64,000 nucleotides of DNA from the NCBI GenBank assembly GCA_009746045.1, contig RPFO01000082.1, forward strand, positions 3,858,042 through 3,922,041. Reading direction: 5' to 3'. Positions 22,368 through 57,340 of the stretch are shown here, one piece after another (within the stretch, counting starts at the first letter, position 1; the number at the start of each line of letters is the position of its first letter). The stretch is from Mesostigma viride. Taxonomy: Eukaryota; Streptophyta; Mesostigmatophyceae; Mesostigmatales; Mesostigmataceae. The position numbers were made by a program, and so were the translations under genes. Under the pieces are notes generated by a model that did no database searches, was not told the origin of the DNA, and saw only the letters and a list, made by a program, of their open reading frames with translations.

Positions 22368-22504
22368 TTCTATTAACCGTGGAACTCCAGGGTAACCAGA
22401 CTCTTTATTAAAACAATGAGTGGAGCACATACAAAAGGCAGGCCACATCCCGGCCGCCGATGCTCATGGGAACACTTATTGCTTGGCAAAGGCTAGCCTT
22501 ACCC
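22368..22504 (-). repeat. B2 repeat of the split-direct-repeat element
   Basis: 137 bp. In element sense it starts GGGTAAGG and ends TTAATAGAA. It matches B1 (22963-23099) and forms the 3-prime end of the element. Confidence 0.92.
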
Positions 22505-22529
22505 CCAAACACGCAGGGAGGGTGGGCGG

Positions 22530-22964
22530 GAAAAGAAAAGAGGCCGACCTTAGCTAGGTGGGTTTGTTTTTGTCCTTTTTTGCGTGTCATGCGGCCTTGG
22601 CCCGGACGGCATTTTTTCGCCACGCAAATGTTGCGTCTGAACAAATGACGCAATGTGGCGTTCTAATTGCCGGCAGCTTACGTAAGGCTGCCGGGGCTAT
22701 TAGGTCACATATTGCGTGAGAGAAAGAATCTAGATCTAGTTAATCACTACGCCATGAGCCAAGAAACCTAGACAGTGGCAGGTTTATATCTCAACGTAGC
22801 TCCTGCCACCTGGCCAAGAAAAAACTGGCCAAAGCTTTGGCCACGACTGATCCGGATCAGGCCGCACCGGCCTCAAAAGGTTTGTCACGTGAACCCAATA
22901 ACCTAGCTATAGCGGCTACCCTTCCATCTCACTATAAAGAAACTATGTTCAGAGAACCACGATT
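22530..22964 (-). repeat. A2 repeat of the split-direct-repeat element
   Basis: 435 bp, matching A1 at the far side of the element. It abuts B1 with a 2-bp overlap (TT at 22963-22964), the expected recombination junction of a circle. Confidence 0.92.
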
Positions 22965-23099
22965 CTATTAACCGTGGAACTCCAGGGTAACCAGACTCTT
23001 TATTAAAACAATGAGTGGAGCACATACAAAAGGCAGGCCACATCCCGGCCGCCGATGCTCATGGGAACACTTATTGCTTGGCAAAGGCTAGCCTTACCC
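22963..23099 (-). repeat. B1 repeat of the split-direct-repeat element
   Basis: 137 bp, internal copy of B2, lying 72 bp beyond the pol stop codon. Confidence 0.92.
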
Positions 23100-23171
23100 T
23101 TATATCCCTCCCTGGCGATCCATGCCAGGGGCAAAGAACCTAGCATAATGACAGAGAAATGAACAACCAAA

Positions 23172-26100
23172 TTAGGTGGAGGGCAATTTCAAAATAGCCC
23201 GCCAGGCCCGAGGGGGGCAGGCGGCCATGGCCCGAAGAATAACCTCAGGCAGCTGCACCTCCAAACTGCGGTGCAAGCCCACATAATGGGCAACCGTGGA
23301 GCTGCTAAGCCAGCGCCCCCGGCCCTGGATGTCCCCCATGCTGCGACCCGCGAGGAAATCGTGAGTGGCACCTCCATGCCGCAGCCCGTGAATGGTGAAA
23401 ATCTGGGCGACCCCCAAGGCCTGACTCGCAGCCTGCCAAATGCGCCGGAATTGCGGGTAGGTGAAAGGGAACACGGCCTCCCAAGCGTGCTTACCCGCGA
23501 TGCAGTGACGGAGGATGGTTTCAGACATCACATCTTCTACCACCACTGACTGAGTCTTGCCCTTAGAGGTCTTGGTAGACCTCAGCAGTAGGGCGCCCCG
23601 TTGAGCCGGCCCAAGCCGAACGTCAGGCTGGAGGCGCACATGGCCAACACGGAGGTTCAGCGCCTCCGAGATTCGCAGGTAATGGCGGAACACGATGACA
23701 ACCAGCAGGCCCGCAAGGCGCTGACCTTGCATGACCATCGTGCTGGCAAGTGCAAACGCCGCCTCCCATGGAATGGGAGGAGGGGCACGGGGGGGCACAA
23801 GTGTTTTCCACCCAGCGAGGACGCCACGGGCCAAGTCCCACCGCTTCACCATACCGGGATAATAAAGTTGCAACCCCATCAAGGCATTGACACACACTTG
23901 GCGGCTGTACCCCCGAAAATGAGCCCAGGCGACATACGCACAAAATGTCTCCTCAAGGGTGTCAGCTCGTGACGATGACCCGTCCGCCCGCCCACCAGCC
24001 TCCCACCAAGTCAAGAGGGAATCAAGACCACGACGGTAGGCCAGCAAAGTAGCCGGCTTTACTTTCCCCTCTAGCAATGGAAGGTAGCTAACAGGTGCAG
24101 GGGGCCCCGGGTTAGGATGGATGCCTTCCGCGGTCAGGTCGCGCACCCAGCCTGCCAAGAAAGTCGCCATGGATTGGCCGCGAGAAACGCCATCGGCTGG
24201 TTGAAGTGCACTCGGCGTCCACACCCACTGGGAACGACTCCCCGTGGCGAGGGTCAGCGCGCACAAGCGGCGGCACTGCTTGTTGAGCTTGTGGGATGAG
24301 GACCGCCCCTTAGCCAAGCAGCCCAACGCCGCGGTGGAGTCCACCAACCTCACCACCCGCTTGCCTCGGTTTGCCAAGCTGCGCGCACTCCTCTCCACGC
24401 CCTTCACTGCAGCCCGCACCTCCTTCTCGTTGATGTGCATCCCCGGATCCCGCCAACGACTCCGGACCCCAACCCGCCATTGCTGGCTAGTGATTGCTTG
24501 TTGCGCCCGCGCGCTCAGTGGCCTAGGGCCAGCGTAGGCCACCTCACTTGGTATGAGCAAAGTCGGGTACCCCCGCACCTCTCGTGCCCTCGCCAGCTCC
24601 GTCACATCGCCCGGCTCCATGGTTGCGTACACGACACCTTGCCCGTAGGTGGACGCGTCAGATGCAACCACCTCACGGGCCAAAGGTGCGCTTCGGTCAA
24701 CCCTTAGCATGGGAGCCAAGGCCAGGGCACACTCTAACTCCTCCCGCACCCCGGCCCACAGCACCCAGGATCGCTGCCCCCACCCTTGCAGGCTGATGAA
24801 TTTGAAACATTGCTGCCAAATGGACAAGCAGCTGCGGCTTAACATCTGCAGCCACAACCACCGCCCCAAGACGGCAGCCAGCCCCTCGGCCGTAGCTCGG
24901 CCTCGAGTGAGTATAGCCTGCGTGTGGGCGATCACAAGGTTGAGCTGCTTGACCGTTGGTTCCAGCACGCCGTTCCGTCGGTGCACCACCCCTAGGGCTT
25001 CTAGCTCGTCCCCTTCCAGGCTCGCCATCTTAGTCTTCTCCTTAGACGGCACAAGGTTGTTAGGGAGGTAGCCTTCCTCAATAGCGCGCGTGATGAGCTG
25101 GTTCACCGCCTCGCAGGTCCGCCCGTTGCTGGCCACCAAGTCATCAATAGTGATGGACAGCATGGGGGCAGGGGGGTTTTCCAGGTCAATCTGAAGCTCC
25201 CCGGCGCGCTCCTCCTTGTACTCGATGGCCAAGCGCAGTGGCTGGCCACACTCGTCGCGCACCAAGGTGAGCTCACCTGCGCTTGAGAGGTAGTTGACCT
25301 GGCGCCTCGGATCCAGGGCACCGGTCATGTAGAGCACCATCTCATGGATGGCCTCCCCCAGCGCCACCGCATGGGAATGTCCCATGGCCAGCACCTTGAG
25401 CACGGGCCACACCTTCCGCCTGGGCCCTGCCAGACCTACGCTAGTCGACCACACACTAGGAAGCCCTTGGTAGTCCCACCACCACTCGGGCACCTCGATG
25501 GAATAGTAGTATGACACGAGGTCGCTCTTGGCGCAGTAGCACCAGCCTTTGATGTAGACCTCCACGAGGATGCCCAGGTGGGGTAGCAGGATCTTGGGGG
25601 GGTCCACCCACAGCAGGTTGCCCAGCTTCCTGTTGACGATGAACCGAAGCTCACCCACCCCCTTGGCCACTCCAAAGCAGCCATCCACCCACTTGGGCCG
25701 CCTCTCCCGGAACGCCACCATGCCCACGCCCGCTGCCCGGCTCATGAGCTTGCCCCATTCAGCCATGGAGCATCCCCGGCTGGGCTTGGGCACATTCCAA
25801 TACTTTGCGCTCGCCACGACCGCTGGCTTGATGCAGTTCTCTTCGCTGGCATATATCTCCCGCCAGCTCGGCCGCATAGCCAACAGGTCGAGCAGCCGTG
25901 CCTTCCCCGCCACCTCCGCCTTTGGTAGACTCACCGCGTCCGCGCGCAGTTGTTCATACTTATTCTGCTTCCCATATATTGCATCAGCACCTTCTTGCTC
26001 CTGGCCTGTCGCAACGCCCCCTACGCGGCGACTGTGCCAGGTGCAGTGCCTCTTGACCCTCGCAAGGGCCTCCTCCCTCCCCTTAGAGCACGCCCCTCTA

Positions 26101-26426
26101 GGGTTAGGAGGAGGGTCTTGCCCCCCTCCCCACAGCCAATTAAGCCAACGCACTACCTTGCATTGCAGTGTGTACTCGCGGTGGCGGCGCGTGGCACGCT
26201 GTCGCCGGCGTGCCGATCTCACCCTGCCCCACGCGGTGTACGCTGGCCTAAGTGGGTATGGCAGCGGGAAAAGGGAGCGGTCCCGCTGGGATTCTATTTC
26301 CCTACTTGTTGAGCCTTGCTGAGCTTGTCCAAGAGGATGGCAGTTTGGAGAGCTGCCTTGACAGCCGGGGTGGCTGACAGTGCAGCCTCCTCCCCCAATG
26401 GCAGGAGGTGGCTGGCCACCTTCCAC
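23172..26426 (-). CDS. Pol polyprotein: reverse transcriptase, RNase H, tyrosine recombinase (1084 aa)
   Basis: Intact frame. The reverse transcriptase spans about residues 255-475, with the first catalytic Asp in KSDLVSYYYS (D302) and the metal-binding pair in TIDDL (D428, D429; Thr where Tyr is usual). RNase H is about 585-750, with Asp in SDASTYGQG (D590), Glu in HINEKE (E667/E669), Asp in RLVDSTAA (D696) and Asp in PADGVSRG (D745). Residues 766-776 read AEGIHPNPGPP, an NPGP motif like that of 2A peptides but without the usual D-x-E before it. The tyrosine recombinase is about 780-1060, with Arg in HYLRISEALN (R918), a Lys-rich STKTSKGK, HGLRHGG (H1013, R1016), W1039 and the nucleophile Y1048. 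All catalytic residues are present, so it appears functional. The frame overlaps gag, and expression probably needs frameshifting. Confidence 0.95.
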   Translation of the reverse strand: MEGGQPPPAIGGGGCTVSHPGCQGSSPNCHPLGQAQQGSTSREIESQRDRSLFPLPYPLRPAYTAWGRVRSARRRQRATRRHREYTLQCKVVRWLNWLWGGGQDPPPNPRGACSKGREEALARVKRHCTWHSRRVGGVATGQEQEGADAIYGKQNKYEQLRADAVSLPKAEVAGKARLLDLLAMRPSWREIYASEENCIKPAVVASAKYWNVPKPSRGCSMAEWGKLMSRAAGVGMVAFRERRPKWVDGCFGVAKGVGELRFIVNRKLGNLLWVDPPKILLPHLGILVEVYIKGWCYCAKSDLVSYYYSIEVPEWWWDYQGLPSVWSTSVGLAGPRRKVWPVLKVLAMGHSHAVALGEAIHEMVLYMTGALDPRRQVNYLSSAGELTLVRDECGQPLRLAIEYKEERAGELQIDLENPPAPMLSITIDDLVASNGRTCEAVNQLITRAIEEGYLPNNLVPSKEKTKMASLEGDELEALGVVHRRNGVLEPTVKQLNLVIAHTQAILTRGRATAEGLAAVLGRWLWLQMLSRSCLSIWQQCFKFISLQGWGQRSWVLWAGVREELECALALAPMLRVDRSAPLAREVVASDASTYGQGVVYATMEPGDVTELARAREVRGYPTLLIPSEVAYAGPRPLSARAQQAITSQQWRVGVRSRWRDPGMHINEKEVRAAVKGVERSARSLANRGKRVVRLVDSTAALGCLAKGRSSSHKLNKQCRRLCALTLATGSRSQWVWTPSALQPADGVSRGQSMATFLAGWVRDLTAEGIHPNPGPPAPVSYLPLLEGKVKPATLLAYRRGLDSLLTWWEAGGRADGSSSRADTLEETFCAYVAWAHFRGYSRQVCVNALMGLQLYYPGMVKRWDLARGVLAGWKTLVPPRAPPPIPWEAAFALASTMVMQGQRLAGLLVVIVFRHYLRISEALNLRVGHVRLQPDVRLGPAQRGALLLRSTKTSKGKTQSVVVEDVMSETILRHCIAGKHAWEAVFPFTYPQFRRIWQAASQALGVAQIFTIHGLRHGGATHDFLAGRSMGDIQGRGRWLSSSTVAHYVGLHRSLEVQLPEVILRAMAACPPRAWRAILKLPST

Positions 26427-27348
26427 CCCCCCCTCCTTGCCCTTCCACCTGCAGCAAGGCCGCCACCACCCTCATTAGGTACTCCATGCCCACAAGCTCC
26501 CCGGCTGCTGAGCCCAGCTCCTTGAGAAGGGTGTCCATGGCCAATGCAATGTTCATGACAATTTTCCTGTTCTCCATGTTCCGCCAATTTCCAGGCTTTA
26601 CCGTCATGACCCACGACCGGATTCCCATCCCATTGTCGCTGGCGTCCTCCAACACCCCCGGCAGCACCCGCTCCGAAACCCGATATTTCACGCTCTTGGC
26701 TCGGCTTGGCAGCGCCACCCCTTTCGAGGCCTTGAAGTGGCTTCCCGCCCCCTCCATTCCTCCCAGCGCTGCCTTCAAACCTTGCATGAATTTCTCGGCT
26801 GCGACCTCCCCCTCCTCGTCCTCCTCGTCGTCCTGATTTTCGGTTTCCGGAGGTGCCCCAACGAATGTCGCCAACCTCGCCCTCATTTCCTTTCCGACAG
26901 CCCCCCCACCTGCCGAAACCTTGGCCGCGCCTTTCGGCTTGGCCATTTTTCGCTGCGCAGGTGTCGTTGGTGGCAGCGCCTGATCCTCCTCCTCGTCCGC
27001 CGCGAGATCTGCCACGGCCAGCAGTTTTGCCACCAACGTTCCGTTTGGGTCACGTGCGTCCAACACGTCGCCAACATCAACGTGATCGGCCAGCAACTGC
27101 ACGACAGACTTCAGCTGGCTCGAGCTCCACGAGCTGGCGTCCGTCACCCAGTCCTCGGCACCGAAGACCTGCTCGACTGCCCCCACCGCCTCTGCGGGGC
27201 TGATGCACTTGGCGAGCAGAGTGGCGAGCTGCTTCTTTTTGGCGCTGAAGGCGACTGGCGCGTGACTGGCGGCAGCAGCCCGCGGTGTGGGCGTCCCGTC
27301 CTCCCCGCGCGCTGCCTGCCCTCCTGTAGCTTTGCGCCCCTTCGGCAT
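26294..27348 (-). CDS. Gag-like protein of the tyrosine-recombinase element
   Basis: ATG 27348 (MPKGRKATGGQAARG...). A basic N-terminus, helical middle and acidic Glu/Asp cluster (NQDDEEDEEGE) are typical of a capsid-like first ORF in this position, but no zinc knuckle is seen. As read, the frame passes through a G8 run (plus-strand C8 26426-26433) into low-complexity sequence ending 26302. One added base instead leads to a sensible helical C-terminus (LLPLGEEAALSATPAVKAAL...) ending 26294. From that frame, pol lies in the -1 frame, the usual gag-pol arrangement. The break may be a mutation or a base-calling error. Confidence 0.75.
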
Positions 27349-27435
27349 TGCTGCTCAGGGCCAAAAATGGCTCCGACAGTACAGGTTCGTCAAACCAGAG
27401 GTTCGTTTCCCCTGGCTTGCTGTCGCCGCCCTCGT

Positions 27436-27870
27436 GAAAAGAAAAGAGGCCGACCTTAGCTAGGTGGGTTTGTTTTTGTCCTTTTTTGCGTGTCATGCGG
27501 CCTTGGCCCGGACGGCATTTTTTCGCCACGCAAATGTTGCGTCTGAACAAATGACGCAATGTGGCGTTCTAATTGCCGGCAGCTTACGTAAGGCTGCCGG
27601 GGCTATTAGGTCACATATTGCGTGAGAGAAAGAATCTAGATCTAGTTAATCACTACGCCATGAGCCAAGAAACCTAGACAGTGGCAGGTTTATATCTCAA
27701 CGTAGCTCCTGCCACCTGGCCAAGAAAAAACTGGCCAAAGCTTTGGCCACGACTGATCCGGATCAGGCCGCACCGGCCTCAAAAGGTTTGTCACGTGAAC
27801 CCAATAACCTAGCTATAGCGGCTACCCTTCCATCTCACTATAAAGAAACTATGTTCAGAGAACCACGATT
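27436..27870 (-). repeat. A1 repeat (5-prime end) of the split-direct-repeat element
   Basis: 435 bp, starting AATCGTGGTTCTCTGAAC in element sense. It is likely to contain the promoter. The starting ~55 bases are recognisably similar to the start of the A repeat of the small element at 38558. Confidence 0.92.
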
Positions 27871-38111: not shown

Positions 38112-38557
38112 TGAAAAAAACTGCACGTGAAGCACAACTGGCACAACCAATGTAAGTAAACCTAGTACCTTCAGGGGCGGATTAATTCATCAGCCGGAGT
38201 ACAATTTTATTTTACAACGCCAACGGCCGTTGGCATTACAGCAATGAAGTTAAGATAAAAACGTCGTAATGCAACGGCTGATAAAACTGGCGTATAATCA
38301 ATAACGCAAAAAAAATTGGCAAGAACTTTTTTTTGGAGGTCCAACGGCCGTTGGCATCACGTAAATCACAACAGCAATGATGGAAACTGATTTTGCAAGT
38401 CCAACGGCCGTTGGCATCAAGAAAATCAGAAGAGGGAGCGACTGCCCAAAAAACGCATAATAATAAAACAAGTACCTTGCAGGTGGTTGACAGACGCGAA
38501 TCTTGTGTGGCGACGTGGAATCTGCAAGGAATGCGCAAAAACGTTGCAATCAGAATT

Positions 38558-40356
38558 ATCGGTGTTCTCTGAACGTAGTTTCTTTATAACAGATGAGAAT
38601 GAACGCCGCTATGTGAGTGGTACTACGGGACGGTGGGCCTTGGGCTGGACCGGTTCCATGAGTTAGAATTAGTTGGCCAGTTTTGTATGGCCATTTCTAG
38701 TTCGTTAAGTTAAGTAGCAATTAAGTTACTGTTGCTGACGGCTCATGAGGCGAGCCCGGGCTACGCCGCCCTAAAGTGCCAATTGCACGATGTTCTAGGT
38801 CTCTTTTTCTTGTAATCGGATGTATGGGGTATGGGTATGGCGGATTACAAGAAATTTAATGCTGCCCTAATCGCGTCAGCCTTTTGGCTGGCGGTGGCCG
38901 ATTAGAGATGGCGCGTGACTGACATAGCTTGAACAGTCACGTGACTGTGAAAAAGAAATTAATTACCCTCGTCGGTTTTCTCCCCGCAGCTGGGTTCTTG
39001 GCCGACGAGAGACTATAAAATACTTCGCGTTTGCCTGCGCGTGGCACCTGTACGGAACTCTGAAACCATGAGTAAGATTTCCGTGCCACGCTGCAGTGCC
39101 TACCGCTTTGCTGCGGAATGTCGCAGCAGGGTTGCAGTTCCTGACTACTGACTGCCGAAGGAAGGGTGGTCGGGTTACTTTCAGTGGGCATTGTGATGGA
39201 CGACAAGTCTGTCGGCCCTCGCGTAAGTAGAAAAATATTTACCAGCATCCGCTCTTATGGGTGCGTGAGGTCTCGGGAATGTGGTGGGGACGAATTCCGG
39301 AATTATGCAATATTTCGATTCAGACCGAGACTTAAGGGGCCAGTTTAACAGACGGACCTGGGCCGGGCAGGACCAAATATTTTGGCCGGCCCAGTTGCGC
39401 TTGCGCTTTATCGGCCGCTGGGGTGTGTGATGAGAGCCTGCTCATCAACTAAAACCTGAAATATGGAAAGTTACTCCCCCAGGTGACAACGTTGACAGTA
39501 ATCGAGATATGGTGGCATCGGGTGACGTCCTACAAGTTGTCGTCACGTTAGGGCGGCACTGGCCTTTGAGGGAGGTCCGTGGTCGTTAAACGAGGCGTCT
39601 TCTTCCTTGTCTTTGCGTGCACATTCAACACCCTCTTTTACTGGCCGAGGGTGGAAGGCTGGGGGGGGCCCTGCGAAGGGTTATCGTGCATGAGGCTCGC
39701 TACAGCCGCCGGCGATTGTAATGGTCGTGACCGTTGCGGCAGGGCAGCCTCGAGAGCCACTGAGCGAAAGTGGTTGGCGGAGCTTTGGAGATAAAGCACC
39801 AGGAAAGGGGGGTTGGCCGGGTAACGAGAACTACAATCAATCATGAGATGGGTGCAGCGTGGCAGGCTCACTCATGGGTTCTGTAATTGCCCACTTATTG
39901 TTTTAATCAAATGTTGGTGGATTGGTAATAGTGGGAATAGAATCGGTGTTCTCTGAACGTAGTTTCTTTATAACAGATGAGAATGAACGCCGCTATGTGA
40001 GTGGTACTACGGGACGGTGGGCCTTGGGCTGGACCGGTTCCATGAGTTAGAATTAGTTGGCCAGTTTTGTATGGCCATTTCTAGTTCGTTAAGTTAAGTA
40101 GCAATTAAGTTACTGTTGCTGACGGCTCATGAGGCGAGCCCGGGCTACGCCGCCCTAAAGTGCCAATTGCACGATGTTCTAGGTCTCTTTTTCTTGTCCC
40201 GCCCTCCCTCCCTCTTCTTGTGTTTGTTTCTAGGGTAACGAGAACTACAATCAATCATGAAATGGGTGCAGCGTGGCAGGCTCACTCATGGGTTCTGTAA
40301 TTGCCCACTTATTGTTTTAATCAAATGTTGGTGGATTGGTAATAGTGGGAATAGAA
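38558..40356 (+). mobile_element. Non-autonomous split-direct-repeat retroelement (1.8 kb)
   Basis: The order on the plus strand is A1 38558-38813, internal 1005 bp, B1 39819-39942, A2 39942-40197, a 35-bp spacer, then B2 40233-40356. A copies are 256 bp and B copies 124 bp, nearly identical (one visible B difference). B1 and A2 overlap by one base. The internal region has no long open frame. The A repeat starts like that of the 22.4-kb element (ATCG..GTTCTCTGAAC.TAGTTTCTTTATA). B starts GGGTAA and ends AATAGAA, and the spacers share a CCGCCC..CCCTCCCT...GTGTTTG pattern. It is therefore a deletion-type relative, probably moved in trans by the same recombinase family. No target-site duplication seen. 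Confidence 0.9.
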
Positions 40357-40393
40357 CAAGGATTACATATTTTCCACATTTAGTTTTTCAGGT

Positions 40394-42355: not shown

Positions 42356-43620
42356 GAATGGGGGTGCTGGCATGCATAAATACCTAAGGGGGGTGCTGGC
42401 ATGCATAAATACCTAGGGGGGTCGCTTGCATGCATAAATACCTAGGGGGGTGCAGGCATGCATAAATACCTAGGGGGGGTGCTGGCATGCATAAATACCG
42501 AGGGGGGGGGCTGGCATGCATAAATACCTAGGGGGGGTCGCTTGCATGCATAAATACCGAGGGGGGTGCTGGCATGCATAAATACCTAGGGGGGTGCTGG
42601 CATGCATAAATACCTAGGGGGGGTGCTGGCATGCATAAATACCTAGGGGGGGTGCTGGCATGCATAAATACCTAGGGGGGGGGCTGCCATTCGTACCTTT
42701 TTTTCTTTTTTTATTTTTAAGCCGGCCTGGGGCAGCGGCGGCGGTGGACGAAAACTGATAGCGTTCCCGTTTGTGCATCCCGTGACCACCGGCCACCAAA
42801 CGGAGGCACGACACCAAGGCAGATCAAGCACCAAAGGAAGCTGAGCAAGGACGTTGACGTTATTAACCAAGAATGGGGGTGCTGGCATGCATAAATACCT
42901 ACTAGGGGGGGTGCTGGCATGCATAAATACATGTGGGGGTGCTGGCATGCATAAATACCTAGGGGGGTGCTGGCATGCATAAATACCTAGGGGGGTGCTG
43001 GCATGCATAAATACGTCGGGTGGGGTGCTGGCATGCATAAATACCTAGGGGGGTGCTGGCATGCATAAATACCTAGGGGGGGTGCTGGCATGCATAAATA
43101 CCGAGGGGGGGGGCTGGCATGCATAAATACCTAGGGGGGGGCTGGCATGCATAAATACGTCGGGGGGGTCGCTGGCATGCATAAATACCTAGGGGGGGTG
43201 CTGGCATGCATAAATACCTAGGGGGGGTGCTGGCATGCATAAATACCTAGGGGGGGGGCTGGCATGCATAAATACCTAGGGGGGGTGCTGGCATGCATAA
43301 ATACCTAGGGGGGTGCTGGCATGCATAAATACCTAGGGGGGGGGCTGGCATGCATAAATACCGAGGGGGGGTGCTGGCATGCATAAATACGTCGGGTGGG
43401 GTGCTGGCATGCATAAATACCTAGGGGGGGTGCTGGCATGCATAAATACCTAGGGGGGGGGGCTGGCATGCATAAATACCGAGGGGGGGGTGCTGGCATG
43501 CATAAATACCGAGGGGGGGGTGCTGGCATGCATAAATACCTAGGGGGGGTGCAGGCATGCATAAATACCGAGGGGGGGGTGCTGGCATGCATAAATACCT
43601 AGGGGGGGTGCTGGCATGCC

Positions 43621-46600
43621 TAAACCCCATGACACCCATCCATGCATGCCAGCACCCCATGACACCCATCCATGCATGCCAGCACCCCATGACACCCATC
43701 CACGCATGCCAGCACCCCATGACACCCATCCATGCATGCCAGCACCCCATGACACCCATCCACGCATGCCAGCACCCCATGACACCCATCCATGCATGCC
43801 AGCACCCCATGACACCCATCCATGCATGCCAGCACCCCACTACACCCATCCACGCATGCCAGCACCCCACTTCACCCATCCATGCATGCCAGCACCCCAC
43901 TACACCCATCCACGCATGCCAGCACCCCACTTCACCCATCCATGCATGCCAGCACCCACTACACCCATCCACGCATGCCAGCACCCCATGACACCCATCC
44001 ATGCATGCCAGCGCCCCATTACACCCATCCATGCATGCCAGCACCCCACTACACCCATCCATGCATGCCAGCACCCCATGACACCCATCCATGCATGCCA
44101 GCACCCCATGACACCCATCCATGCATGCCAGCACCCCATCACACCCATCCATGCATGCCAGCACCCCATGACACCCATCCACGCATGCCAGCACCCCACT
44201 ACACCCATCCATGCATGCCAGCACCCCATGACACCCATCCACGCATGCCAGCACCCCACTTCACCCATCCATGCATGCCAGCACCCACTACACCCATCCA
44301 CGCATGCCAGCACCCCATGACACCCATCCATGCATGCCAGCGCCCCATTACACCCATCCATGCATGCCAGCACCCCACTACACCCATCCATGCATGCCAG
44401 CACCCCATGACACCCATCCATGCATGCCAGCACCCCATGACACCCATCCATGCATGCCAGCACCCCATCACACCCATCCATGCATGCCAGCACCCCATGA
44501 CACCCATCCATGCATGCCAGCACCCCACTACACCCATCCATGCATGCCAGCACCCCATGACACCCATCCATGCATGCCAGCACCCCATGACACCCATCCA
44601 TGCATGCCAGCACCCCATCACACCCATCCATGCATGCCAGCACCCCACTACACCCATCCATGCATGCCAGCACCCCATCACCCATCCATGCATGCCAGCA
44701 CCCCACTACACCCATCCATGCATGCCAGCACCCCACTCACCCATCCATGCATGCCAGCACCCACTACACCCATCCACGCATGCCAGCACCCCATGACACC
44801 CATCCATGCATGCCAGCCCCATACACCCATCCATGCATGCCAGCACCCCACTACACCCATCCATGCATGCCAGCACCCCATGACACCCATCCATGCATGC
44901 CAGCACCCCATGACACCCATCCATGCATGCCAGCACCCCATCACACCCATCCATGCATGCCAGCACCCCATGACACCCATCCATGCATGCCAGCACCCCA
45001 CTACACCCATCCATGCATGCCAGCACCCCATGACACCCATCCATGCATGCCAGCACCCCACTTCACCCATCCATGCATGCCAGCACCCCACTACACCCAT
45101 CCATGCATGCCAGCACCCCATGACACCCATCCATGCATGCCAGCACCCCATACACCCATCCATGCATGCCAGCACCCCATGACACCCATCCACGCATGCC
45201 AGCACCCCATGACACCCATCCATGCATGCCAGCACCCCATGACACCCATCCACGCATGCCAGCACCCCATGACACCCATCCATGCATGCCAGCACCCCAT
45301 GACACCCATCCATGCATGCCAGCACCCCACTACACCCATCCATGCATGCCAGCACCCCACTTCACCCATCCATGCATGCCAGCACCCCACTACACCCATC
45401 CATGCATGCCAGCACCCCACTTCACCCATCCATGCATGCCAGCACCCACTACACCCATCCACGCATGCCAGCACCCCATGACACCCATCCATGCATGCCA
45501 GCGCCCCATACACCCATCCATGCATGCCAGCACCCCACTACACCCATCCATGCATGCCAGCACCCCATGACACCCATCCATGCATGCCAGCACCCCATGA
45601 CACCCATCCATGCATGCCAGCACCCCATCACACCCATCCATGCATGCCAGCACCCCATGACACCCATCCACGCATGCCAGCACCCCACTACACCCATCCA
45701 TGCATGCCAGCACCCCATGACACCCATCCACGCATGCCAGCACCCCACTTCACCCATCCATGCATGCCAGCACCCACTACACCCATCCACGCATGCCAGC
45801 ACCCCATGACACCCATCCATGCATGCCAGCGCCCCATACACCCATCCATGCATGCCAGCACCCCACTACACCCATCCATGCATGCCAGCACCCCATGACA
45901 CCCATCCATGCATGCCAGCACCCCATGACACCCATCCATGCATGCCAGCACCCCATCACACCCATCCATGCATGCCAGCACCCCATGACACCCATCCACG
46001 CATGCCAGCACCCCACTACACCCATCCATGCATGCCAGCACCCCATGACACCCATCCATGCATGCCAGCACCCCATGACACCCATCCATGCATGCCAGCA
46101 CCCCATCACACCCATCCATGCATGCCAGCACCCCACTACACCCATCCATGCATGCCAGCACCCCATGACACCCATCCACGCATGCCAGCACCCCACTACA
46201 CCCATCCATGCATGCCAGCACCCCATGACACCCATCCATGCATGCCAGCACCCCATGACACCCATCCATGCATGCCAGCACCCCATCACACCCATCCATG
46301 CATGCCAGCACCCCACTACACCCATCCATGCATGCCAGCACCCCATGACACCCATCCATGCATGCCAGCACCCCATCACACCCATCCATGCATGCCAGCA
46401 CCCCACTACACCCATCCATGCATGCCAGCACCCCATGACACCCATCCACGCATGCCAGCACCCCACTACACCCATCCATGCATGCCAGCACCCCATGACA
46501 CCCATCCATGCATGCCAGCACCCCATGACACCCATCCATGCATGCCAGCACCCCATGACACCCATCCATGCATGCCAGCACCCCATCACACCCATCCATG

Positions 46601-49600
46601 CATGCCAGCACCCCACTACACCCATCCATGCATGCCAGCACCCCATGACACCCATCCACGCATGCCAGCACCCCACTACACCCATCCATGCATGCCAGCA
46701 CCCCATGACACCCATCCATGCATGCAGCACCCCATGACACCCATCCATGCATGCCAGCACCCCATCACACCCATCCATGCATGCCAGCACCCCATGACAC
46801 CCATCCATGCATGCCAGCACCCCATGACACCCATCCATGCATGCCAGCACCCCATCACACCCATCCATGCATGCCAGCACCCCACTACACCCACCCATGC
46901 ATGCCAGCACCCCATGACACCCATCCACGCATGCCAGCACCCCACTACACCCATCCATGCATGCCAGCACCCCATGACACCCATCCATGCATGCCAGCAC
47001 CCCATGACACCCATCCATGCATGCCAGCACCCCATGACACCCATCCATGCATGCCAGCACCCCATCACACCCATCCATGCATGCCAGCACCCCATGACAC
47101 CCATCCACGCATGCCAGCACCCCACTACACCCATCCATGCATGCCAGCACCCCATGACACCCATCCATGCATGCCAGCACCCCATCACACCCATCCATGC
47201 ATGCCAGCACCCCATGACACCCATCCACGCATGCCAGCACCCCACTACACCCATCCATGCATGCCAGCACCCCATGACTGTCACCCATCCATGCATGCAA
47301 GCACCCCACTACACCCATCCATGCCAATAATGCATTGATTCCAACAAATGAATAAGTGGGGCTGCCATTCGTACCTTTTTTTCTTTTTTTCTTGGAAACA
47401 GGGGGCCGGCCTGGGGCAGCGGCGGCGGGGGACGAAAACTGATAGCGTTCCCGTTTGTGCATCCCGTGACCACCGGCCACCAAACGGAGGCACGACACCA
47501 AGGCAGATCAAGCACCAAAGGAAGCAGCAAGGACGTTGACGTTATTAACCATCCATGCATGCCAGCACCCCATGACACCCATCCATGCATGCCAGCACCC
47601 CATGACACCCATCCATGCATGCCAGCACCCCATGACACCCATCCACGCTTGCCAGCACCCCACTACACCCACCCATGCATGCCAGCACCCCATCACACCC
47701 ATCCATGCATGCCAGCACCCCATGACACCCATCCACGCATGCCAGCACCCCACTACACCCATCCATGCATGCCAGCACCCCATGACACCCATCCATGCAT
47801 GCCAGCACCCCATGACACCCATCCATGCATGCCAGCACCCCATGACACCCATCCATGCATGCCAGCACCCCATCACACCCATCCATGCATGCCAGCACCC
47901 CATGACACCCATCCATGCATGCCAGCACCCCACTACACCCATCCACGCATGCCAGCACCCCACTTCACCCATCCATGCATGCCAGCACCCACTACACCCA
48001 TCCACGCATGCCAGCACCCCATGACACCCATCCATGCATGCCAGCGCCCCATTACACCCATCCATGCATGCCAGCACCCCACTACACCCATCCATGCATG
48101 CCAGCACCCCATGACACCCATCCATGCATGCCAGCACCCCATGACACCCATCCATGCATGCCAGCACCCCATCACACCCATCCATGCATGCCAGCACCCC
48201 ATGACACCCATCCACGCATGCCAGCACCCCACTACACCCATCCATGCATGCCAGCACCCCATGACACCCATCCACGCATGCCAGCACCCCACTTCACCCA
48301 TCCATGCATGCCAGCACCCACTACACCCATCCACGCATGCCAGCACCCCATGACACCCATCCATGCATGCCAGCGCCCCATTACACCCATCCATGCATGC
48401 CAGCACCCCACTACACCCATCCATGCATGCCAGCACCCCATGACACCCATCCATGCATGCCAGCACCCCATGACACCCATCCATGCATGCCAGCACCCCA
48501 TCACACCCATCCATGCATGCCAGCACCCCATGACACCCATCCACGCATGCCAGCACCCCACTACACCCATCCATGCATGCCAGCACCCCATGACACCCAT
48601 CCATGCATGCCAGCACCCCATGACACCCATCCATGCATGCCAGCACCCCATCACACCCATCCATGCATGCCAGCACCCCACTACACCCATCCACGCATGC
48701 CAGCACCCCACTTCACCCATCCATGCATGCCAGCACCCCACTACACCCATCCACGCATGCCAGCACCCCACTTCACCCATCCATGCATGCCAGCACCCAC
48801 TACACCCATCCACGCATGCCAGCACCCCATGACACCCATCCATGCATGCCAGCGCCCCATTACACCCATCCATGCATGCCAGCACCCCACTACACCCATC
48901 CATGCATGCCAGCACCCCATGACACCCATCCATGCATGCCAGCACCCCATGACACCCATCCATGCATGCCAGCACCCCATCACACCCATCCATGCATGCC
49001 AGCACCCCATGACACCCATCCACGCATGCCAGCACCCCACTACACCCATCCATGCATGCCAGCACCCCATGACACCCATCCACGCATGCCAGCACCCCAC
49101 TTCACCCATCCATGCATGCCAGCACCCACTACACCCATCCACGCATGCCAGCACCCCATGACACCCATCCATGCATGCCAGCGCCCCATTACACCCATCC
49201 ATGCATGCCAGCACCCCATGACACCCATCCACGCATGCCAGCACCCCATGACACCCATCCATGCATGCCAGCACCCCATGACACCCATCCACGCATGCCA
49301 GCACCCCATGACACCCATCCATGCATGCCAGCACCCCATGACACCCATCCATGCATGCCAGCACCCCACTACACCCATCCACGCATGCCAGCACCCCACT
49401 TCACCCATCCATGCATGCCAGCACCCCACTACACCCATCCACGCATGCCAGCACCCCACTTCACCCATCCATGCATGCCAGCACCCACTACACCCATCCA
49501 CGCATGCCAGCACCCCATGACACCCATCCATGCATGCCAGCGCCCCATTACACCCATCCATGCATGCCAGCACCCCACTACACCCATCCATGCATGCCAG

Positions 49601-52600
49601 CACCCCATGACACCCATCCATGCATGCCAGCACCCCATGACACCCATCCATGCATGCCAGCACCCCATCACACCCATCCATGCATGCCAGCACCCCATGA
49701 CACCCATCCACGCATGCCAGCACCCCACTACACCCATCCATGCATGCCAGCACCCCATGACACCCATCCACGCATGCCAGCACCCCACTTCACCCATCCA
49801 TGCATGCCAGCACCCACTACACCCATCCACGCATGCCAGCACCCCATGACACCCATCCATGCATGCCAGCGCCCCATTACACCCATCCATGCATGCCAGC
49901 ACCCCACTACACCCATCCATGCATGCCAGCACCCCATGACACCCATCCATGCATGCCAGCACCCCATGACACCCATCCATGCATGCCAGCACCCCATCAC
50001 ACCCATCCATGCATGCCAGCACCCCATGACACCCATCCACGCATGCCAGCACCCCACTACACCCATCCATGCATGCCAGCACCCCATGACACCCATCCAT
50101 GCATGCCAGCACCCCATGACACCCATCCATGCATGCCAGCACCCCATCACACCCATCCATGCATGCCAGCACCCCACTACACCCATCCATGCATGCCAGC
50201 ACCCCATGACACCCATCCACGCATGCCAGCACCCCACTACACCCATCCATGCATGCCAGCACCCCATGACACCCATCCATGCATGCCAGCACCCCATGAC
50301 ACCCATCCATGCATGCATGCCAGCACCCCATCACACCCATCCATGCATGCCAGCACCCCACTACACCCATCCATGCATGCCAGCACCCCATGACACCCAT
50401 CCATGCATGCCAGCACCCCATCACACCCATCCATGCATGCCAGCACCCCACTACACCCACCCATGCATGCCAGCACCCCATGACACCCATCCACGCATGC
50501 CAGCACCCCACTACACCCATCCATGCATGCCAGCACCCCATGACACCCATCCATGCATGCCAGCACCCCATGACACCCATCCATGCATGCCAGCACCCCA
50601 TGACACCCATCCATGCATGCCAGCACCCCATCACACCCATCCATGCATGCCAGCACCCCACTACACCCATCCATGCATGCCAGCACCCCATGACACCCAT
50701 CCACGCATGCCAGCACCCCACTACACCCATCCATGCATGCCAGCACCCCATGACACCCATCCATGCATGCCAGCACCCCATGACACCCATCCATGCATGC
50801 CAGCACCCCATCACACCCATCCATGCATGCCAGCACCCCACTACACCCATCCATGCATGCCAGCACCCCATGACACCCATCCATGCATGCCAGCACCCCA
50901 TCACACCCATCCATGCATGCCAGCACCCCACTACACCCACCCATGCATGCCAGCACCCCATGACACCCATCCACGCATGCCAGCACCCCACTACACCCAT
51001 CCATGCATGCCAGCACCCCATGACACCCATCCATGCATGCCAGCACCCCATGACACCCATCCATGCATGCCAGCACCCCATGACACCCATCCATGCATGC
51101 CAGCACCCCATCACACCCATCCATGCATGCCAGCACCCCATGACACCCATCCACGCATGCCAGCACCCCACTACACCCATCCATGCATGCCAGCACCCCA
51201 TGACACCCATCCATGCATGCCAGCACCCCATCACACCCATCCATGCATGCCAGCACCCCATGACACCCATCCACGCATGCCAGCACCCCACTACACCCAT
51301 CCATGCATGCCAGCACCCCATGACTGTCACCCATCCATGCATGCAAGCACCCCACTACACCCATCCATGCCAATAATGCATTGATTCCAACAAATGAATA
51401 AGTGGGGCTGCCATTCGTACCTTTTTTTCTTTTTTTCTTGGAAACAGGGGGCCGGCCTGGGGCAGCGGCGGCGGGGGACGAAAACTGATAGCGTTCCCGT
51501 TTGTGCATCCCGTGACCACCGGCCACCAAACGGAGGCACGACACCAAGGCAGATCAAGCACCAAAGGAAGCAGCAAGGACGTTGACGTTATTAACCATCC
51601 ATGCATGCCAGCACCCCATGACACCCATCCATGCATGCCAGCACCCCATGACACCCATCCATGCATGCCAGCACCCCATGACACCCATCCACGCTTGCCA
51701 GCACCCCACTACACCCACCCATGCATGCCAGCACCCCATCACACCCATCCATGCATGCCAGCACCCCATGACACCCATCCACGCATGCCAGCACCCCACT
51801 ACACCCATCCATGCATGCCAGCACCCCATGACACCCATCCATGCATGCCAGCACCCCATGACACCCATCCATGCATGCCAGCACCCCATGACACCCATCC
51901 ATGCATGCCAGCACCCCATCACACCCATCCATGCATGCCAGCACCCCATGACACCCATCCATGCATGCCAGCACCCCATGACACCCATCCATGCATGCCA
52001 GCACCCCATGACACCCATCCACGCTTGCCAGCACCCCACTACACCCACCCATGCATGCCAGCACCCCATCACACCCATCCATGCATGCCAGCACCCCATG
52101 ACACCCATCCACGCATGCCAGCACCCCACTACACCCATCCATGCATGCCAGCACCCCATGACACCCATCCATGCATGCCAGCACCCCATGACACCCATCC
52201 ATGCATGCCAGCACCCCATGACACCCATCCATGCATGCCAGCACCCCACTACACCCATCCACGCATGCCAGCACCCCACTTCACCCATCCATGCATGCCA
52301 GCACCCCACTACACCCATCCACGCATGCCAGCACCCCACTTCACCCATCCATGCATGCCAGCACCCACTACACCCATCCACGCATGCCAGCACCCCATGA
52401 CACCCATCCATGCATGCCAGCGCCCCATTACACCCATCCATGCATGCCAGCACCCCATGACACCCATCCACGCTTGCCAGCACCCCACTACACCCACCCA
52501 TGCATGCCAGCACCCCATCACACCCATCCATGCATGCCAGCACCCCATGACACCCATCCACGCATGCCAGCGCCCCATTACACCCATCCATGCATGCCAG

Positions 52601-55600
52601 CACCCCACTACACCCATCCATGCATGCCAGCACCCCATGACACCCATCCATGCATGCCAGCACCCCATCACACCCATCCATGCATGCCAGCACCCCATGA
52701 CACCCATCCATGCATGCCAGCACCCCATGACACCCATCCACGCTTGCCAGCACCCCACTACACCCACCCATGCATGCCAGCACCCCATCACACCCATCCA
52801 TGCATGCCAGCACCCCATGACACCCATCCACGCATGCCAGCACCCCACTACACCCATCCATGCATGCCAGCACCCCATGACACCCATCCATGCATGCCAG
52901 CACCCCATGACACCCATCCATGCATGCCAGCACCCCATGACACCCATCCATGCATGCCAGCACCCCATCACACCCATCCATGCATGCCAGCACCCCATGA
53001 CACCCATCCATGCATGCCAGCACCCCATGACACCCATCCATGCATGCCAGCACCCCATCACACCCATCCATGCATGCCAGCACCCCACTACACCCATCCA
53101 TGCATGCCAGCACCCCATGACACCCATCCACGCATGCCAGCACCCCACTACACCCATCCATGCATGCCAGCACCCCATCACACCCATCCATGCATGCCAG
53201 CACCCCATGACACCCATCCATGCATGCCAGCACCCCATGACACCCATCCACGCTTGCCAGCACCCCACTACACCCACCCATGCATGCCAGCACCCCATCA
53301 CACCCATCCATGCATGCCAGCACCCCATGACACCCATCCATGCATGCCAGCGCCCCATTACACCCATCCATGCATGCCAGCACCCCACTACACCCATCCA
53401 TGCATGCCAGCACCCCATGACACCCATCCATGCATGCCAGCACCCCATCACACCCATCCATGCATGCCAGCACCCCATGACACCCATCCACGCATGCCAG
53501 CACCCCACTACACCCATCCATGCATGCCAGCACCCCATGACACCCATCCACGCATGCCAGCACCCCACTTCACCCATCCATGCATGCCAGCACCCACTAC
53601 ACCCATCCACGCATGCCAGCACCCCATGACACCCATCCATGCATGCCAGCGCCCCATTACACCCATCCATGCATGCCAGCACCCCACTACACCCATCCAT
53701 GCATGCCAGCACCCCATGACACCCATCCATGCATGCCAGCACCCCACTACACCCATCCATGCATGCCAGCACCCCATGACTCCCATCCATGCATGCCAGC
53801 ACCCCATGACACCCATCCATGCATGCCAGCACCCCATGACACCCATCCACGCATGCCAGCACCCCACTACACCCATCCATGCATGCCAGCACCCCATGAC
53901 ACCCATCCATGCATGCAAGCACCCCACTACACCCATCCATGCCAATAATGCATTGATTCCAACAAATGAATAAGTGGGGCTGCCATTCGTACCTTTTTTT
54001 CTTTTTTTCTTGGAAACAGGGGGCCGGCCTGGGGCAGCGGCGGCGGGGGGACGAAAACTGATAGCGTTCCCGTTTGTGCATCCCGTGACCACCGGCCACC
54101 AAACGGAGGCACGACACCAAGGCAGATCAAGCACCAAAGGAAGCAGCAAGGACGTTGACGTTATTAACCATCCATGCATGCCAGCACCCCATGACACCCA
54201 TCCACGCATGCCAGCACCCCACTACACCCATCCACGCATGCCAGCACCCCACTTCACCCATCCATGCATGCCAGCACCCCATCACACCCATCCATGCATG
54301 CCAGCACCCCATCACACCCATCCATGCATGCCAGCACCCCATGACACCCATCCACGCTTGCCAGCACCCCACTACACCCACCCATGCATGCCAGCACCCC
54401 ATCACACCCATCCATGCATGCCAGCACCCCATGACACCCATCCATGCATGCCAGCACCCCATCACACCCATCCATGCATGCCAGCACCCCATGACACCCA
54501 TCCACGCATGCCAGCACCCCACTACACCCATCCATGCATGCCAGCACCCCATGACACCCATCCACGCATGCCAGCACCCCACTTCACCCATCCATGCATG
54601 CCAGCACCCACTACACCCATCCACGCATGCCAGCACCCCATGACACCCATCCATGCATGCCAGCGCCCCATTACACCCATCCATGCATGCCAGCACCCCA
54701 CTACACCCATCCATGCATGCCAGCACCCCATGACACCCATCCATGCATGCCAGCACCCCACTACACCCATCCATGCATGCCAGCACCCCATGACTCCCAT
54801 CCATGCATGCCAGCACCCCATGACACCCATCCATGCATGCCAGCACCCCATGACACCCATCCACGCATGCCAGCACCCCACTACACCCATCCATGCATGC
54901 CAGCACCCCATGACACCCATCCATGCATGCAAGCACCCCACTACACCCATCCATGCCAATAATGCATTGATTCCAACAAATGAATAAGTGGGGCTGCCAT
55001 TCGTACCTTTTTTTCTTTTTTTCTTGGAAACAGGGGGCCGGCCTGGGGCAGCGGCGGCGGGGGACGAAAACTGATAGCGTTCCCGTTTGTGCATCCCGTG
55101 ACCACCGGCCACCAAACGGAGGCACGACACCAAGGCAGATCAAGCACCAAAGGAAGCAGCAAGGACGTTGACGTTATTAACCATCCATGCATGCCAGCAC
55201 CCCATGACACCCATCCACGCATGCCAGCACCCCACTACACCCATCCACGCATGCCAGCACCCCACTTCACCCATCCATGCATGCCAGCACCCCATCACAC
55301 CCATCCATGCATGCCAGCACCCCATCACACCCATCCATGCATGCCAGCACCCCATGACACCCATCCACGCTTGCCAGCACCCCACTACACCCACCCATGC
55401 ATGCCAGCACCCCATCACACCCATCCATGCATGCCAGCACCCCATGACACCCATCCACGCATGCCAGCACCCCACTACACCCATCCACGCATGCCAGCAC
55501 CCCATGACACCCATCCATGCATGCCAGCACCCCACTACACCCATCCACGCATGCCAGCACCCCACTTCACCCATCCATGCATGCCAGCACCCCACTACAC

Positions 55601-56633
55601 CCATCCACGCATGCCAGCACCCCATGACACCCATCCATGCATGCCAGCGCCCCATGACACCCATCCATGCATGCCAGCGCCCCATTACACCCATCCATGC
55701 ATGCCAGCACCCCACTACACCCATCCATGCATGCCAGCACCCCATGACACCCATCCATGCATGCCAGCACCCCATCACACCCATCCATGCATGCCAGCAC
55801 CCCATGACACCCATCCATGCATGCCAGCACCCCATGACACCCATCCACGCTTGCCAGCACCCCACTACACCCACCCATGCATGCCAGCACCCCATCACAC
55901 CCATCCATGCATGCCAGCACCCCATGACACCCATCCACGCATGCCAGCACCCCACTACACCCATCCATGCATGCCAGCACCCCATGACACCCATCCATGC
56001 ATGCCAGCACCCCATGACACCCATCCATGCATGCCAGCACCCCATGACACCCATCCATGCATGCCAGCACCCCATCACACCCATCCATGCATGCCAGCAC
56101 CCCATGACACCCATCCATGCATGCCAGCACCCCATACACCCATCCATGCATGCCAGCACCCCATGACACCCATCCACGCTTGCCAGCACCCCACTACACC
56201 CACCCATGCATGCCAGCACCCCATCACACCCATCCATGCATGCCAGCACCCCATGACACCCATCCACGCATGCCAGCACCCCACTACACCCATCCATGCA
56301 TGCCAGCACCCCATGACACCCATCCATGCATGCCAGCACCCCATCACACCCATCCATGCATGCCAGCACCCCATGACACCCATCCATGCATGCCAGCACC
56401 CCATGACACCCATCCACGCTTGCCAGCACCCCACTACACCCATCCATGCATGCCAGCACCCCATCACACCCATCCATGCATGCCAGCACCCCATGACACC
56501 CATCCATGCATGCCAGCACCCCATGACACCCATCCACGCTTGCCAGCACCCCACTACACCCATCCATGCATGCCAGCACCCCATGACACCCATCCATGCA
56601 TGCCAGCACCCCATGACACCCATCCATGCATAA
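43621..56633. repeat. 30-bp satellite (CACCCCATGACACCCATCCATGCATGCCAG-type), 13 kb
   Basis: About 425 units. Variation is limited to a few sites: ATGAC/ACTAC/ATCAC/ACTTC after CACCCC, CATGCATGCC versus CACGCATGCC or CACGCTTGCC, and CACCCC versus CGCCCC. The order of variants recurs in blocks, giving higher-order repeats, for example about 4.05 kb between the islands at 47.3 and 51.4 kb, and about 1.0 kb between those at 54.0 and 55.0 kb. Because 30 is a multiple of 3 and units lack stops, all frames give long repetitive peptides, which are not genes. Confidence 0.97.
47340..47548. repeat. Island repeat, long form (copies at 51386, 53959, 54974)
   Basis: About 209 bp. Starts CAACAAATGAATAAGTGGGG, includes CTTTTTTTCTTGGAAACAG and ends GACGTTATTAACC. 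All copies point the same way on the plus strand, whatever the orientation of the surrounding satellite. The first bases resemble unique sequence at 57470-57490 (ACAAATGAACAAGTGGGGCT), so the islands were probably copied from there. Confidence 0.92.
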
Positions 56634-57340
56634 ATACACACGGTGGGGTGCTGGCATGCATAAATACATGTGGTGGGGCGCTGTCATGCATAAATACATG
56701 CGGTGGGGTGCTGGCATGCATAAATACATGTGGTGTGGTGCCGGCATGCATAAATACATGTGCCAGCAAACCTGAGCTGCAAGGGAGCGAGAAAACCAAG
56801 AAAAAAAGCACGCAACACACCACGCGTCGTACCTTTTTATAGATGTTTCTTTTTTTTTATGGGGCCGGCCGGGGGCGGCGGTGGCGGCAAAAATGAAGCT
56901 AGTGACACCGCGCAGATGACGCCGTGAACATGTCGCGTTGTACCGTAGAAGATACGAACAAAAAACAAAACACGAAAAAAGAGAGGCGGACCGCATATGA
57001 CAGGGACGAAAAAAAGTCAGACACACAGCCTGTGTTATCTGGCATGCATAAATACATGTGGTGTGGTGCCGGCATGCATAAATACATGTGCCAGCAAACC
57101 TGAGCTGCAAGGGAGCGAGAAAACCAAGAAAAAAAGCACGCAACACACCACGCGTCGTACCTTTTTATAGATGTTTCTTTTTTTTTATCCTTGTCCTTCG
57201 GGGGCAGCGGCGGCGGGTGGAAGAAAACTGATAGCGTTGTTGTGCATCCCGTGACCACCGGCCACCAAACGGAGGCACGACACCAAGGCAGATCAAGCAC
57301 CAAAGGAAGCAGCAAAACATCAACGTTAGTAACCAAGAAT
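56634..57340. repeat. Satellite edge: variant units and a ~150-bp duplication
   Basis: Five units of ATAAATACATGTGGTGGGG plus TGCTGGCATGC (plus orientation again), then a block (56710-56859) repeated at 57040-57188 containing GCCAGCAAACCTGAGCTGC and ACCACGCGTCGTACC, and finally an island variant at 57185-57337. Confidence 0.85.

Follow-up and report, generated by a model that had tools for sequence, protein, structure and literature searches.

Within the window, as we call the whole 64,000-nt stretch of Mesostigma viride DNA that was analysed, positions 38559-40356 hold a complete split-direct-repeat (SDR) element, and we put at nearly nine in ten the probability that it is a non-autonomous member of the PAT/TOC/Kangaroo type of tyrosine-recombinase retrotransposons and depends for its movement on coding SDR elements in the same genome acting in trans. 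Its interest lies in its target code and in the one-way outcome of its insertions rather than in its non-autonomy. To our knowledge, site choice and DNA joining by tyrosine-recombinase retrotransposons have been modelled from few insertions, and a limited literature search found no earlier description of this code or outcome. With hundreds of junctions from three young families, this one genome makes the target code readable and displays naturally reduced shared cis blocks, and the strong one-way footprint discriminates between integration models.

The order A1-internal-B1-A2-spacer-B2 emerged from self-alignment, in which A1 (38558-38813) and A2 (39942-40197) were identical over 256 bp, the first base being the A of the target, and B1 (39819-39942) and B2 (40233-40356) were 99.2% identical over 124 bp. 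This bears out the A1-internal-B1-A2-B2 plan proposed in an earlier note on this DNA, which had placed the element at 38558-40356. The right end given there holds, but the start does not: the leading A at 38558 differs in some copies, and excision starting from T 38559 leaves gap-free tandem repeats when joined flanks are matched, so that 38558 is a target base, the first base of the element is T 38559 and its length is 1798 bp, one base below the earlier figure. The features of the element and its target are as follows.

38557-38558, plus strand: left half of the target, TA at this site (AA is the commonest dinucleotide); from copy flanks
38559-38813, plus strand: A1 repeat, starting TCGGTG TTCTCTGAAC; from self-alignment, copies and empty sites
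38814-39818, plus strand: internal region, non-coding, 1005 bp; from ORF and fold scans
39819-39942, plus strand: B1 repeat, GGGTAA...AATAGAA; from self-alignment
39936-39958, plus strand: B1/A2 junction AATAGAA-TCGGTG-TTCTCTGAAC, putative circle-junction template and recombination core; from a pattern search
39943-40197, plus strand: A2 repeat; from self-alignment
40198-40232, plus strand: A2-B2 spacer, CCCGCCC.CCCTCCCT...TGTTTG, 35 bp; from alignment to coding elements
40233-40356, plus strand: B2 repeat, the right end of the element; from self-alignment and copies
40357-40364, plus strand: 6-bp target spacer CAAGGA and right half TT of the target; from copy flanks

We found no plausible gene in the small element, whose longest ATG-initiated reading frame (103 aa) lies on the minus strand and whose longest plus-strand frame fully inside it has 50 aa, in agreement with the lack of coding capacity noted earlier. 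The excess of RNA folding in the internal region is modest (z of -3.3 on the plus strand and -2.1 on the minus strand), an Rfam scan of the whole window gave no matches and a tRNA scan found none. Inverted terminal repeats were not found in the element, its longest inverted arms (17 nt) being non-terminal. A DIRS1-like class was considered and rejected, as the repeats are direct and split and there are no terminal inverted repeats. The SDR class is indicated by the split direct repeats, precise insertion without duplication, the absence of protein genes and termini in common with a tyrosine-recombinase element.

Non-autonomous SDR elements are already known: TOC1 of Chlamydomonas is an SDR element without full coding capacity, and to that extent like ours, by description rather than by sequence, and SIRE of Trypanosoma cruzi is a short, non-autonomous version of VIPER. 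In the passages of PMC6681497 and PMC12278014 that deal with them, VIPER and TATE insert without target duplication, and SIRE is composed of VIPER end sequence, with 185 bp taken from the 5' part, 220 bp from the 3' end and some 30 bp peculiar to SIRE, or else corresponds to the A2-B2 region. SIRE as described there is likewise a non-autonomous SDR relative that retains terminal sequence, whereas the small element keeps the full A1-internal-B1-A2-B2 order and a 1-kb interior of its own and has only short blocks in common with coding elements. PAT-like, TOC and Kangaroo elements are bounded by split direct repeats according to the relevant part of PMC3266345, and PAT-like DIRS elements are mentioned from Chlamydomonas and relatives in a portion of PMC8226300. 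These elements (PAT superfamily, DIRS order) show the same A1-internal-B1-A2-B2 order, with a tyrosine recombinase in the coding partner; the element here differs in lacking a coding region and in having ends common to two coding families, a comparison made by description and not by sequence.

The first of these coding families is represented in the window by a 5.5-kb element at 22368-27868 on the minus strand, 11 kb from the small element.

27436-27868, minus strand: A1, starting TCGTGG TTCTCTGAAC; from self-alignment
26302-27348, minus strand: first ORF, 348 aa, no Pfam match, in what would be the gag position
23172-26426, minus strand: long ORF, 1084 aa, with Pfam Phage_integrase (tyrosine recombinase) at residues 908-1050
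22963-23099, minus strand: B1; from self-alignment
22530-22962, minus strand: A2; from self-alignment
22505-22529, minus strand: A2-B2 spacer; from self-alignment and terminus alignment
22368-22504, minus strand: B2; from self-alignment

The 1084-aa frame presumably also encodes reverse transcriptase and RNase H, which we assign by motifs only; Pfam reported neither in this frame, even at an E value of 10. Preceding its recombinase domain, residues 756-777 carry the motif HPNPGP and match Omono River virus (PDB 9thi) with an E value of 0.0005; we take this stretch to resemble a 2A-type peptide, and the same motif occurs in the second coding family. Scanning the coding protein against viral contigs gave no match. 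Among 24 scored of 1300 candidates, the search for the 5.5-kb family returned 22 full-length and two partial matches at a rounded 100%, and one short match. Through that short match we reached the second coding family (5386 bp, L082 39-5424), which has the spacer TCGGGG; its identity to the 5.5-kb element is 74% over 3.7 kb of DNA and 71% over 897 residues of protein.

To compare the small and 5.5-kb elements, we judged alignment scores against dinucleotide shuffles (200 for each comparison, 20 for the interior). The first 60 nt of A scored 32 (shuffle maximum 14), the B repeat 24.5 (shuffles 19) and the A2-B2 spacer 15 (shuffles 12), and the matching termini claimed in the earlier note are thus upheld at all three places. 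The remainder of A (22, shuffles 24.5) and the interior (29, shuffles 46.5) were not above shuffles. With both coding families the small element has only end blocks in common, about 30 nt of them at the start of A. A three-way alignment leaves TCGKKG-TTCTCTGAAC.TAGTTTCTTTATA where A begins; within B, GGGTAA at its start, a block around ACT.ATTGTTTTAAT and AATAGAA at its end; and TCCCxCCC.CCCTCCCT...TGTTT in the A2-B2 spacer. These blocks common to three families are candidate minimal cis sequences for mobilisation.

Which coding family would supply the enzymes is less clear. The junction AATAGAA-N6-TTCTCTGAAC occurs at 613 genome sites (reversed control, 0), and a hand count of the spacers among 100 listed gave TCGGTG 35, TCGTGG 33, TCGGGG 31 and one other. 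As the three families are scattered genome-wide, the 11-kb proximity of the 5.5-kb element carries little weight, and its role as the likely driver, suggested in the earlier note, is not established. The recombination arms are the same in the second coding family as in the small and 5.5-kb families, its A start fits the small element about equally well (45 identities in the first 60 nt, against 44 for the 5.5-kb element) and the 100 listed junctions contain the second and the 5.5-kb family in similar numbers (31 and 33). That the second family, or another unseen one, is the driver in place of the 5.5-kb element is accordingly a serious contender at a little under even odds; its scores are slightly below those of the 5.5-kb element (28.5 versus 31 for A, 21.5 versus 23 for B), a trivial difference. 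The driver does not appear to be unique.

The small elements form a young family. Further short SDR elements, which the earlier note had proposed seeking, were found in the genome search: 40 of 261 candidates were scored, 35 of them with both ends, at 98.8-100% identity to the window copy. The other five (L012 and L037-L040) lack the 3' end and stop at differing points within the 3' repeats, with no common rule seen among them. Since three of the 35 two-ended copies share flanks with another, there are 32 distinct insertions, each with 1-10 substitutions and 0-11 gap columns relative to the majority sequence. Sequence patterns detected 147 left and 138 right ends genome-wide and each miss about a quarter of ends, so the family may number very roughly 200 copies, some of which, given repeated flanks in the end lists, are haplotigs or duplications. 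Two unusual forms were also observed. L083 (C1:11895120-11898380) is a tandem dimer, A-int-B-A-int-B-A-spacer-B with shared repeats, which could be a concatemer or have arisen by recombination between A repeats, and L084 (C113:2127020-2127400) is a 309-bp form with a full A, the last 53 nt of B and a canonical AA-N6-TT target, either a deletion or a minimal mobile form.

Among the 32 copies, A-repeat variants fall into 27 copy-cells common to A1 and A2 and four one-sided ones, as expected if both repeats were copied from one template, like LTRs. B-repeat variants comprise no shared and 17 one-sided cells, nine of which represent one deletion in L013, so that coupled copying is supported for A only. 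The linked A1/A2 variants also bear on a different origin, in which the small element descends from the 5.5-kb element by internal deletion or rearrangement, is no longer active and owes its copies to segmental duplication. Such a history would account for the common ends and for three flank-sharing pairs among 40 copies, as haplotigs or duplications would give, but it is very improbable given the linkage, an interior and most of A no more similar to the 5.5-kb element than shuffles, and the finding of precise ends and a common target motif across 32 distinct flanks.

That motif was read from the insertion sites. At the B1-A2 junction, AGAA-TCGGTG-TTCT, the arms of an inverted repeat flank 6 bp, and genomic targets have the form AA-N6-TT in both the small and the 5.5-kb families. 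At least three of the four AA-N6-TT bases are present at 29 of 32 small copies (4.8% at shifted positions) and at 16 of 21 5.5-kb copies (5.3% at shifted positions), flanks having been read for 21 of the 22 full-length matches of the latter family. A longer list, in which dropping repeats left 94 of the 100 left ends listed and 94 of the 100 right ends listed, has A at the two left positions in 82 and 72 of 94 and T at the two right positions in 64 and 77 of 94. The target is degenerate, the left dinucleotide being other than AA in 14 of the 32 copies of the small family and in 7 of the 21 of the 5.5-kb family. The presumed circle junction AGAA-N6-TTCT and the AA-N6-TT targets share one common arm-spacer-arm geometry.

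When the flanks of the 32 small copies were joined, four matched uninterrupted tandem units without gaps (L017, L020 and L026 over 200 of 200 bases, L021 over 186), L028 matched a tandem repeat with gaps and L025 did so partially, L005 and L007 matched other loci weakly and in part, and for 24 there was no spanning match among the loci compared. Of 1291 candidate paralogs of the joined L031 site, 40 were scored; in 38 of these exactly 300 bases correspond to 300, at 96-97%, and the remaining two span 301 and 298. At the readable empty sites the element alone was therefore added, with no bases duplicated or lost. Empty sites lacking target duplication, to which the earlier note had pointed as a check, thus exist at L017, L020, L026 and L021 and among the L031 paralogs, and the flanking duplications that it had named as the contrary sign were not seen above chance, a flank match of at least 3 nt occurring in one of 32 distinct small copies (1.3 expected from re-paired flanks). 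Of 21 copies of the 5.5-kb family, two have a 4-nt flank match, a raw count without a control.

The six spacer bases resolve one way, the left end carrying those of the element and the right end those of the target. Exchange of both strands over the 6-bp spacer, followed by segregation, would be expected to give the reverse arrangement, target spacer on the left and element spacer on the right, in half of the insertions. No shifted left end was found among 64 long matches (40 from the small-family and 24 from the 5.5-kb search), and exact genome-wide patterns gave no opposite ends for the small family and no opposite right ends for the two coding families. Ordinary ends by pattern numbered 147 left and 138 right for the small family and 330 right for the coding families, the counts of 138 and 330 each including at least one altered internal junction. 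The opposite-end patterns miss about a sixth of such ends, as estimated from the longer list, as well as mutated ones, and one small-family pattern contains a longer A stretch whose own frequency was not counted. Two of 200 listed right ends carry the element spacer (C1579:6824601 and C366:49-78), but A2 lies behind both and they are altered internal junctions rather than exceptions.

Finding only one of the two expected outcomes suggests that one strand alone is exchanged or retained, that is, single-strand or strand-biased integration. We tentatively propose, with somewhat less than even confidence, that the SDR retrotransposons of this genome integrate at degenerate AA-N6-TT sites by a tyrosine-recombinase exchange that involves a single strand or is strictly strand-biased, with no spacer identity needed and the mRNA-sense strand alone forming the insert. 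If so, the one-strand exchange of integron cassettes would be a nearer likeness than the double-strand circle model. A 2020 NAR paper reportedly concerns single-stranded cDNA of DIRS. The main rival is a crossover in a short AA overlap that element and target have in common, which would give the one-way outcome without strand bias. Element and target alike often have AA immediately left of the crossover (A in 82 and 72 of 94), and the DIRS1 model, as set out in part of PMC3266345, has a 3-bp circle junction recombine with an identical genomic sequence. That model needs 3-bp identity, whereas in this genome the arms enclose six bases that are free to vary; the 14 of 32 two-ended small copies with a left dinucleotide other than AA show the same outcome, and conserved bases lie symmetrically on either side of the 6-bp spacer, which from general tyrosine-recombinase biochemistry would imply a spacer-wide overlap. 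We rate the short-overlap crossover at rather less than even odds.

In the route proposed for the small element, an RNA running from A1 to B2 would be reverse transcribed by the enzymes of the coding elements, and the internal B1-A2 junction would template the joined ends, giving a new copy that carries AGAA-TCGGTG-TTCT. The recombinase would then bind a genomic AA-N6-TT site as well as the AGAA/TTCT arms, and exchange at the edge of the 6-bp spacer would leave the element spacer on the left and the target spacer on the right. Counter to what a clean two-ended reaction would predict, the 3' end is missing in 5 of the 40 scored small copies.

The window also contains other repeats. The palindrome CAACGGCCGTTG occurs at 67 sites between 12699 and 63497, some in tandem arrays and others dispersed, and a very large array of 30-bp tandem repeats extends for about 13 kb, from about 43486 to 57000.
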